The position numbers and the translations under genes were made by a program. A DNA stretch of 43,691 nucleotides, taken from positions 1 to 43,691 of the forward strand of contig JAGCDE010000052.1 of assembly GCA_017651315.1 (NCBI GenBank), in the 5' to 3' direction. Source of the stretch: Bacteroidaceae bacterium (GTDB lineage Bacteria > Bacteroidota > Bacteroidia > Bacteroidales > Bacteroidaceae). Below, piece after piece: positions 5,209 through 19,625 of this stretch; the first letter of the stretch is position 1; the number at the start of each line of letters is the position of its first letter. The notes under the pieces are model-generated. The model was given only the letters and a program-made list of their open reading frames with translations, had not been told where the DNA came from and ran no database searches.

Positions 5209-5281
5209 GCGGTAGTAGCTCAGTTGGTAGAGCGTTGGCTTCCCAAGCCGAAGGTCGCGGGATCGTGCCCCGTCTACCGCT
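5209..5281 (+). tRNA. tRNA-Gly (anticodon CCC)
   Basis: A full cloverleaf can be drawn. The acceptor stem is GCGGTAG with CTACCGC (5274-5280). The D-arm is GCTC/GAGC. The anticodon arm is TTGGC-TTCCCAA-GCCGA, giving anticodon CCC for GGG codons. The T-stem is GCGGG/CCCGT. The T-loop reads ATCGTGC rather than the usual TTCRA form: the 54/58 pair is A/T instead of T/A. No CCA end is encoded. The 3' half, from about 5246, is repeated twice more downstream (see the 125-bp repeats). Confidence 0.9.
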
Positions 5282-5287
5282 CTGATT

Positions 5288-5315
5288 AAAGGTTCTCTGA
5301 CTGGGAACCTTTTTT
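5288..5315 (+). terminator. Intrinsic terminator after tRNA-Gly (copy 1)
   Basis: AAAGGTTC and GGAACCTTT form a stem around an 8-nt loop, followed by a run of T. It directly follows the tRNA. Confidence 0.75.
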
Positions 5316-5412
5316 CGTCTATTTCGGCTTGGGAAGCCTGTCCGTATTTTAGTTCGCTATAGCGAACGGGAGCCGAAGGTCGCGGGATCGTGCCCCGTCT
5401 ACCGCTCTGATT

Positions 5413-5440
5413 AAAGGTTCTCTGACTGGGAACCTTTTTT
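5413..5440 (+). terminator. Repeated terminator in copy 2 of the array
   Basis: An exact second copy, 125 bp on, of the hairpin and T-run at 5288-5315. Transcripts that read through the first terminator meet it again. Confidence 0.7.
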
Positions 5441-5539
5441 CGTCTGTTTCGGCTTGGGAAGCCTGTCCGTGTTTTAGTTCGCTATAGCGAACGGGAGCCG
5501 AAGGTCGCGGGATCGTGCCCCGTCTACCGCTCTGATTAC

Positions 5540-5569
5540 AAAAGGCTTCCGGTTGAGGAAGCCTTTTTT
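5540..5569 (+). terminator. Distinct final terminator of the tRNA-Gly array
   Basis: AAAAGGCTTCC and GGAAGCCTTTT pair around GGTTGA, followed by T residues. Its sequence differs from the two repeated terminators, so the third repeat diverges just before it. The reverse strand could also terminate the DUF4301 gene that ends at 5586. Confidence 0.75.
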
Positions 5570-5585
5570 CGTTTATTATACTGAG

Positions 5586-7112
5586 TTATGCAGGCTGGTG
5601 TTGGGGACGGAGAAGGTCATTCACCGTCTTGACGGGATTGAAGGTTGTGAGGGGAACCTCCACGAAAAGGGTGTTCCAGTCACTCATGGCACCGTTCCAC
5701 AGTCCGGGAAGCTCAAGAGCCTTGAGCTCACGCCCGTTCTTGGACTTGCTTGAGATAAAGCCCGTGTTCCTGTCCACAAAGTCCGGGAGGTTGAATTTCT
5801 TACCCTTGTAACCTTTCAGGCCGCACACCAGATCCACAGGATTGAAGTGGGTTCCCTGGGTGAACATCTCTTTCTTGACGGGATCCGAAAGGTCTATCTG
5901 GGAGCTTTCCAGTATCTGAAGCGATACGGTCCCGTCACTGTTGTAGGCCAGGAACGGTCCGCCTCCGGGCTCACCCACATTGCGTACCATGCCGCACACC
6001 CTTAACGGACGGTCCAGCTTGGAACGGAGCCATGCGGAAAGCTCTTCGGCCGGCATCTGCTCCACCCCTTTCTTCCGGCAGCACAGGGTGTCCCGTACGA
6101 AATCCGCTATGGTCTTGAGTTTCTCAGCTGTATAGTTACCGCTGTCAAGCAGTCTCAGATACTCGAAAATCCTGTTCTGGACGGACACGAGTATTCCGGC
6201 CAGCAGTTTCTTGTACGTAACGGTGTCGGCCTTGAGGTGGTCCGGTACCACATTGTCTATGTTCTTGACGAACACCACATCGGCATCCAGTTCATTGAGG
6301 TTCTCAATGAGTGCGCCGTGACCTCCCGGGCGGAAGAGTATGGAGCCGTCATCATTGCGGAACGGGTTACCCTCCAGGTCCGATGCCACAGTGTCGGTAC
6401 TCTTCTTCTGCTCGGAGAAAGTGATATCATACTTAATCCCGAAACGCTTAGAAAGACCCTTGCTGTTGCTGTCGGCAAGAGCACGGAACAGCTCCTTGTG
6501 TTCCGGGGAGACAGTGAAATGCAGATGCACTGTCCCGTCCGAGCCAGATGCATACATGGCGCCCTCCACAAGGTGTTCCTCAAGAGGAGTGCGGGAGCTG
6601 CCATTATAACGGTGGAACTTGAGCAGCCCTTTGGGTAATGCCCCATAGTTAAGTCCTTTCATGCCCAGCAGATTTGCCACCACCTTTTTATATTCACCTT
6701 CAGCTACAAGCTCACTTATGGACTGCCTGTCATTGGTCATGCACACAGCATCCAGTTCATCATAGAAGGCGAATCTCTCCAGCCCCTCAAAAAACTTTAT
6801 CTCAAAAGGAGTTGAAGGAGTATCGTATGGTGCATCAAGAAAAGCGAAGAGGTCCTTGAACATACGGCTGGCGGCACCAGAGGCGGGCACGAACTTGAGG
6901 ACACGATGTCCGCTGCCGCAATAGGTGTCCCATGTCTTTATGTACTCTCTGCATCTGTCATCATCGACAGCGATTATCCCGTTACCTACCGATGCCGCAG
7001 CATCCAATTCAAGATAGGGGAAACCCTTCTTAAGCAAATCCAGCTGATTCTCTACCTGTGAAGCAGTGATACCCTTGGCCTCAAACTGCGCCAAATCTTT
7101 CTCATTAAACAT
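5586..7112 (-). CDS. DUF4301 family protein
   Basis: A 508-residue soluble protein without a signal peptide. Its start (MFNEKDLAQFEAKGI), the block VLKFVPASGAASRMFKDLF near residue 75, and the later PGGHGALIENLN (about 260) and GEPGGGPF (about 375) match the Bacteroidetes family DUF4301. The small-residue PASGAASRMFK segment looks like a nucleotide- or phosphate-binding loop, but the biochemical function is unknown. The promoter is textbook: -7 TATATTTG at 7133-7140 with TTTG 19 nt upstream. The gene converges on the tRNA-Gly array and diverges from the DUF1573 gene. Confidence 0.85.
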   Translation of the reverse strand: MFNEKDLAQFEAKGITASQVENQLDLLKKGFPYLELDAAASVGNGIIAVDDDRCREYIKTWDTYCGSGHRVLKFVPASGAASRMFKDLFAFLDAPYDTPSTPFEIKFFEGLERFAFYDELDAVCMTNDRQSISELVAEGEYKKVVANLLGMKGLNYGALPKGLLKFHRYNGSSRTPLEEHLVEGAMYASGSDGTVHLHFTVSPEHKELFRALADSNSKGLSKRFGIKYDITFSEQKKSTDTVASDLEGNPFRNDDGSILFRPGGHGALIENLNELDADVVFVKNIDNVVPDHLKADTVTYKKLLAGILVSVQNRIFEYLRLLDSGNYTAEKLKTIADFVRDTLCCRKKGVEQMPAEELSAWLRSKLDRPLRVCGMVRNVGEPGGGPFLAYNSDGTVSLQILESSQIDLSDPVKKEMFTQGTHFNPVDLVCGLKGYKGKKFNLPDFVDRNTGFISSKSKNGRELKALELPGLWNGAMSDWNTLFVEVPLTTFNPVKTVNDLLRPQHQPA

Positions 7113-19439: not shown

Positions 19440-19621
19440 AAAAAAAACCGCACCGGTGATGTGATGAGAACTCCGAGATATATGATTTGAGCGCCCGGTA
19501 CCCTTTGTAATCCACCGACCGAAGGTTACCCCTATATGGGGCGTGGCCCGCCATTGGATACCAGAGCTGTCCCGGTTTTCTGTTTTTTATTGATGAGTCT
19601 CCCGATCTAACCCGGTGCGGT
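19440..19621 (-). ncRNA. ssrS: 6S-like RNA (Bacteroidales-1 motif)
   Basis: A stretch of about 180 nt downstream of rplT with its own promoter and terminator. The 5' strand AACCGCACCGG (near 19616) pairs perfectly with CCGGTGCGGTT at the 3' end, followed by eight T. Inside, GAGACTC pairs with GAGTTCTC, and GGTATCC pairs with GGGTACC. An inner CCCC/GGGG hairpin closes the rod around an open centre. The published Bacteroidales-1 RNA is typically downstream of rplT, has a TAnnTTTG promoter, and was later proposed to be 6S RNA, which binds RNA polymerase. I recall these points from the literature; the assignment rests on position and the fold I drew. Confidence 0.8.
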
Positions 19622-19625
19622 TGCA

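Follow-up and report, generated by a model that had tools for sequence, protein, structure and literature searches.

Within the window, by which we mean the whole 43,691-nucleotide stretch of DNA that was analyzed, a tRNA-Gly(CCC) gene is followed by a short tandem array and, on the opposite strand, by a convergent gene. The features are, with their evidence in parentheses:

5209..5282, plus strand: tRNA-Gly(CCC) (ARAGORN, Rfam)
5237..5252, plus strand: segment of the tRNA anticodon arm, mirrored downstream (sequence)
5246..5370, plus strand: unit 1, consisting of a 37-bp tRNA 3' half, terminator, antisense anticodon arm, T-run and hairpin palindrome (TRF, sequence)
5288..5312, plus strand: terminator hairpin of unit 1 (terminator scan)
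5323..5338, plus strand: 16-nt reverse complement of the anticodon arm in unit 1 (sequence, shuffle comparison)
5348..5367, plus strand: family-hallmark hairpin of unit 1, TTTAG + GTTCGC-TATA-GCGAAC (pattern search)
5371..5495, plus strand: unit 2, with two mismatches to unit 1 (TRF, sequence)
5413..5437, plus strand: terminator hairpin of unit 2 (terminator scan)
5448..5463, plus strand: 16-nt reverse complement of the anticodon arm in unit 2 (sequence)
5473..5492, plus strand: family hairpin of unit 2 (pattern search)
5496..5538, plus strand: partial copy 3, the tRNA 3' half plus 6 bp, followed by another terminator (TRF, sequence)
5540..5567, plus strand: different terminator behind partial copy 3 (terminator scan)
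5586..7112, minus strand: convergent neighbor gene, DUF4301 (PF14134) (profile match)

The tRNA gene is matched by Rfam at 63.2 bits and ARAGORN agrees, while TRF confirms the array with a period of 125 bp, 2.3 copies over 5246-5538, 98% matches and a score of 572. The two full units (5246-5370 and 5371-5495) differ by two mismatches and the third, partial start (5496-5538, 43 bp) is identical, which is the layout that the original prediction had described. Its account of the unit holds for the terminator, the 16-nt antisense arm and the 16-bp palindrome; the tRNA part measures 37 bp, not the 36 bp given there. Each full unit comprises these last 37 bp of the tRNA, duplicated in direct orientation, a terminator-like hairpin, an exact 16-nt reverse complement of the anticodon arm (5237-5252; copies at 5323-5338 and 5448-5463), and a perfect 16-bp palindrome, GTTCGCTATAGCGAAC (5352-5367 and 5477-5492), of which the source genome holds no other copy with up to one mismatch allowed. 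For the antisense segment of unit 1 the score is 16, and no shuffle exceeds 10. Terminator-like sites lie at 5288-5312 and 5413-5437, with a different one at 5540-5567, and the 2001 bases scanned contain five such sites versus a shuffle mean of 2.0. The RNA fold predicted for 5209-5571 is 7.75 standard deviations more stable than those of 100 dinucleotide shuffles, and a read-through transcript is predicted to form cis pairing between its antisense and anticodon arms. Rfam places only the tRNA over cut-off in the array. The T-loop of this tRNA (5209-5282) reads ATCGTGC, the usual consensus being TTCRANN; by eye, ATCGTGC is common to 13 of 18 array-less tRNA-Gly(CCC) loci of the genus.

Using the strict hairpin pattern TTTAGTTCGCN{2,8}GCGAAC, we found eight occurrences in the source genome: two in the window array, one at tRNA-Ala(CGC), two at tRNA-Val(TAC), one at tRNA-Leu(CAA), and the remaining two at the end of contig C40, in units that resemble the tRNA-Val array. 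Contigs C11 and C40 of this genome (G000) both end inside a 105-bp tRNA-Val(TAC)-type array, and the assembly therefore probably broke there. Across the genus we counted 77 places with the pattern, spread over 28 of 37 genomes, and none with its reversed control. An order-wide sample of 295 Bacteroidales genomes, which included the source genome and no other member of its genus, contained the pattern in 3 of the other 294, in surroundings that appear unrelated by eye; of two broad contig scans, one was without matches and the other returned two unrelated ones (Streptomyces, Moorella). Judged by these searches, the hairpin family is restricted to one bacterial genus and is REP-like. The reversed control pattern occurs 34 times (20 forward, 14 reverse) in G113, a genome of another Bacteroidales family, where it marks a different dispersed palindrome.

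Of 74 distinct sites, 40 are preceded on their own strand by a tRNA or tmRNA no more than 250 nt away, and at 3 it lies downstream on the opposite strand; by simple arithmetic (44 tRNAs in 2.69 Mb), a random site is expected behind a tRNA in well under 1% of cases. No tRNA or tmRNA is found within 250 nt at the other 31 sites, several of which, by eye, lie in the interior of the tRNA-Leu(CAA) cluster or at contig ends. A second element motif, CTCTCGCTCG...CGCCCCAATAC, is present at 56 places in 21 of the 37 genus genomes, and among the 30 loci fetched, 29 of them distinct, an upstream tRNA is found at 19 of the 29. A few sites neighbor protein genes, namely those for an Hc1 histone-like protein, an acetyl-CoA hydrolase/transferase and a glutamate dehydrogenase. 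Genes for tRNAs, tmRNA, Hc1 histone-like proteins, acetyl-CoA hydrolase and glutamate dehydrogenase are generally expected to be strongly expressed.

The usual order of an element is the 3' end of a gene, a terminator, an antisense copy of the same gene's 3' end, a T-run and a 6-bp hairpin, often with a short local hairpin before the T-run and a GC-rich shared tail after the 6-bp hairpin. The 6-bp hairpin is fully paired at 29 of 30 second-motif sites, a count in which many sites are orthologues and which stands without a shuffle control. Six stem types with changes on both sides are seen, each with its matching partner: GTTCGC (17), ATTTGC (5), GTTTGC (3), TTTCGC (2), TTTTGC (1) and GTTCAC (1). 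Tandem arrays also occur at tRNA-Val (105 bp) and tRNA-Cys (137 bp).

To quantify the antisense copies, the last 45 nt of each tRNA were compared with its own downstream flank (score of at least 10), with exchanged tRNAs as the control. In the source genome, 38 of the 44 tRNA matches entered this comparison, and an antisense match lies behind 10 of the 38, versus 1.2% of 733 exchanges; in a genome of the same family and another genus, the values are 1 of 38 and 0.3% of 719 exchanges. Two of the ten positive tRNAs, Val(GAC) and Thr(CGT), carry no family hairpin by eye, and tRNA-Val(TAC) falls below the threshold despite carrying the element. This second test covered tRNAs only. An earlier automatic scan had found arms above shuffles at only 35 of 72 sites, having missed arms near the terminator because the last 70 bases were set aside. 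Where tRNA-Met is joined to the hairpin (10 of 10 sites, ten genomes), 12-25 of the last 25 tRNA nucleotides are predicted to pair beyond the terminator, and spacer and terminator take about five forms over the ten genomes.

The arms are reverse complements that track the local gene and have no fixed sequence, with two exceptions. At a glutamate dehydrogenase gene (L102), the copy of the gene end runs in direct orientation behind an inverted hairpin; a 35-residue frame just downstream directly repeats the last codons, ANAMCEQGLV and the stop. L234, in the source genome, has a tRNA-His-like fragment in sense orientation and lacks any tRNA in the surrounding 250 nt. The hairpin itself takes the other orientation relative to the tRNA at tRNA-Pro(CGG). 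Across the family, the antisense piece mostly corresponds to the T-arm and acceptor or to the end of a coding sequence, and at tRNA-Arg(CCT) (L222, L225) it also reaches the anticodon arm. Anticodon masking, which the original prediction had offered as one function, is therefore not the common theme of these elements.

We searched for the array in relatives with positions 5246-5400 (155 bases) as query against the source genome and 60 others. The whole query is matched at 71-75% identity in six genomes of the same genus (G005, G007, G008, G016, G021, G030), and a seventh (G023) matches its first 93 bases; the relatives' units measure 127-145 bp and align with the window unit at a mean column identity of 76%. 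The search for the unit in other genomes that had been suggested with the prediction thus returned related units behind tRNA-Gly(CCC) in seven further genus genomes. Occurrence in a single assembly, named there as the sign of an artefact, does not apply, as related arrays are present in eight genomes, and because of the seven others we reject the assembly artefact. Rfam placed only tRNAs and a cobalamin riboswitch over cut-off in seven relatives' loci, and a known RNA family was rejected for the array, low-scoring microRNA and sRNA matches being taken as hairpin chance.

At the level of the locus, we examined 27 tRNA-Gly(CCC) loci, 26 of them from the genus, of which two have less than 10 nt of flank, leaving 24 informative. 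Downstream 3'-half copies are found at 8 of these 24 and no array at the other 16. Six of the eight array genomes have an exact core of the antisense arm; it is changed at one base in G030 and altered in G023. By eye, the terminator within the unit is similar across all eight, what follows the last 3' half varies, and array-less loci either lack a terminator directly behind the tRNA (such as L014, L019, L023, L024) or have one of their own (L015, L020). From this visual comparison of sequences, the unit at tRNA-Gly(CCC) looks inserted as a block. The genus has at least three T-arm alleles at this gene. In G016 the gene carries GAGTTCGAGACTC and the downstream copy GGGATCGTGCCCC, and in G023 the two are reversed; since the alleles are reciprocal between the two genomes, 3' halves have been exchanged. 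The T-arm swap between the gene and the downstream 3'-half copy was seen at loci L012 and L013, in two genomes.

At tRNA-Leu(CAA), 7 of the 10 genomes read have repeated family sites, mostly spaced 1-10 kb from one another. Accessory genes lie in between, and gene content differs among genomes. Nine of the cargo proteins were scanned and include Fic/RhuM, DUF4143 ATPases, BRO, ParE and ORF6N; small secreted-looking proteins are also encoded between the sites (L147-L156). Judging by this layout, the locus (L147-L156, ten genomes) is a tRNA-anchored accretion locus. In one genome (L150, G021), the tRNA-Leu by eye lacks its own 3' end and terminator and continues directly into the antisense segment; no tRNA is called there by ARAGORN.

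Looking for tyrosine recombinases, Y1_Tnp transposases, reverse transcriptases and IntI, we identified no mover gene; the source genome is 83% complete, and the absence is therefore weak evidence. Tyrosine recombinases (PF00589) gave six matches in this genome, none of them on the window contig (C50). Five were scanned further: one is an XerD over cut-off, one is nearest to XerC but under cut-off, a third is XerA-like and lies beside a type I restriction-modification-like gene, and two have no NCBIfam model at 1e-10. An integron cassette array was rejected, the best IntI (TIGR02249) score among the five in this 83% complete genome being 122.5 bits versus a cut-off of 265. Y1_Tnp genes give 42 matches in 23 of the 37 genus genomes and none in the source genome (83% complete), and the TTTAG hairpin is absent from the flanks of the 20 loci fetched of these 42; a RAYT/Y1 transposase was rejected as the mover on these grounds, and a reverse transcriptase likewise (7 of 37 genomes, none in the source genome). 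A phage origin was also rejected, as the hairpin pattern's 19 matches on viral contigs look, by eye, unrelated.

The best reading of the window array is that a single member of a palindromic repeat family, REP-like, genus-restricted and situated behind terminators, was amplified in tandem. As to how such members arise, we favor, with a probability of roughly 45%, template-switch copies of gene ends at terminator hairpins that became joined to the genus-specific hairpin repeat. A replication fork would stall at a heavily transcribed terminator, the nascent strand would fold back on the terminator hairpin and copy the gene end in reverse (quasipalindrome template switching), and synthesis would next move on to one of the dispersed hairpin repeats. 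Arrays could form from single units through slippage or unequal exchange, and recombination between the tRNA and the downstream 3'-half copies could exchange T-arms. A present role, if there is one, is probably that of an extended terminator, and by the fold model a read-through tRNA would be misfolded in cis. Quasipalindrome template switching is consistent with arms that are mirrored, that vary with the local gene and that lie at terminators. According to two reports, template switching can create and mend RNA hairpins, making or completing reverse-complement arms at them (PMC8794818), and in yeast quasipalindrome events were seen only under high transcription (PMC3820800).

Several observations fit template switching less well. 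As a mutational process, it yields by itself neither a shared hairpin repeat nor arrays, and it leaves the spread of the shared hairpin and tail between loci unexplained. The insertion at tRNA-Gly(CCC) looks block-like by eye, L102 has its copy in direct orientation, L234 has a sense fragment with no tRNA near, and the T-arm exchange between G016 and G023 would also be expected from an integrative element. The 31 of 74 sites without a tRNA within 250 nt, and the 35 of 72 sites in the earlier scan, count in the same direction.

Rather unlikely, in our estimate, is the reading of the array as att-site scars, in which small integrative elements, served by a tyrosine recombinase in trans, would integrate into the anticodon or T arm of tRNA genes, supplying a new 3' half along with a terminator, and would leave the 125-bp units as cargo-less remnants. 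The direct duplication of the 37-bp 3' half suggests such an origin, as do the similar in-unit terminators with differing sequence behind the last 3' half (by eye, eight genomes), the reciprocal T-arm alleles of gene and copy in G016 and G023, and the recurrent tRNA-Leu(CAA) sites with genes between them in 7 of 10 genomes; since the T-arm exchange shows recombination, an att-like origin is possible. Known tRNA-targeted integrative elements, tandem att sites and tycheposons share with the array their tRNA 3' fragments and the accretion of accessory genes beside tRNAs. They differ from it in that no integrase was found here, none of the six PF00589 matches being on C50 and thus no recombinase at the array, that the gene-end copies are inverted and that protein genes adjoin some sites. 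Also against att scars, the hairpin is common to the loci while the attached gene fragment varies, and the viral-contig hairpin matches look unrelated. Of the original prediction's attachment-site reading, the duplicated 3' half, the exchanged T-arms and the tRNA-Leu(CAA) sites with accessory genes stand in its favor; the lack of a tyrosine recombinase on the window contig, the protein-gene neighbors and the fragment that changes from locus to locus do not.

We also think it unlikely that the elements are REP-type miniature transposons, mobilized by an HUH-like single-strand transposase recognizing the T-run and hairpin, with the gene end and terminator taken along by reading through to the next hairpin. 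The T-run plus A that precedes a hairpin with paired changes is consistent with such a mover, as are the dispersal over many loci, the two orientations relative to the tRNA (tRNA-Pro(CGG)) and the Y1_Tnp genes in 23 of 37 genomes. Against it are the lack of a Y1_Tnp match in the source genome (83% complete), of the TTTAG hairpin at the 20 loci fetched of 42, and of reverse transcriptases in the source genome and all but 7 of the 37. As described in PMC3733652, REP/BIME sequences with RAYTs are short dispersed intergenic palindromes that form arrays and have a hairpin beside a conserved tag. The genus family too is a dispersed hairpin with a conserved flanking tag and arrays; its tag is a T-run plus A/G, whereas the REP tag is GTAG or CGTC, and its copies are joined to the 3' end of the neighboring gene in a genome without a Y1_Tnp match.

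Equally improbable is a mobile hairpin element of an undescribed class, which at each site would be linked to the adjacent host gene's 3' end and terminator, mostly in mirrored form, and whose tRNA arrays would store alternative 3' halves for swapping into the expressed gene. Least probable is the regulatory or decoy array, whose read-through RNA would mask tRNA-Gly(CCC) via a GGG loop: it accords with the exact 16-nt complement in each full unit, the strong fold and the antisense core that is exact in 6 of 8 array genomes, but elsewhere the antisense piece mostly matches the T-arm and acceptor or coding-sequence ends, the terminators precede it, the arm is predicted to pair in cis, and 16 of 24 informative loci are without an array. 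For a read-through tRNA, inactivation in cis is conceivable.

Among described systems, the tyrT operon repeats of E. coli, which encode rtT RNA, consist of tandem units behind a tRNA, each repeating the tRNA 3' end. The window array likewise repeats a tRNA 3' end and terminators in tandem; to our knowledge, rtT has no antisense tRNA copy and no hairpin shared by many loci, and the Rfam rtT family has no match in the window or the relatives' loci scanned. Palindromic candidate structured RNAs from the human microbiome, some of them in Bacteroidetes, are mostly predicted terminators (PMC8040213); the passages compared describe no gene-end copies behind tRNAs, and the candidates in its tables may overlap with the family. 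In the literature searched we found no description of an element of this kind.

If template switching is the true origin, the family would offer dozens of natural cases in which fold-back copying took place at the terminators of genes that are expected to be heavily transcribed. Such copying is known mainly from reporter assays and reconstructed histories. If the process is instead driven by an enzyme, the family would represent a mobile element that acquires the end of the gene next to it. Either way, tRNA 3' ends are copied, mirrored and exchanged at scale in one bacterial genus, which bears on the evolution of tRNA genes and on the tRNA-anchored accretion of accessory genes. Elsewhere in the window, Rfam matches a Bacteroidales-1 RNA (6S-like) on the minus strand at 19440-19622, with 147.1 bits.
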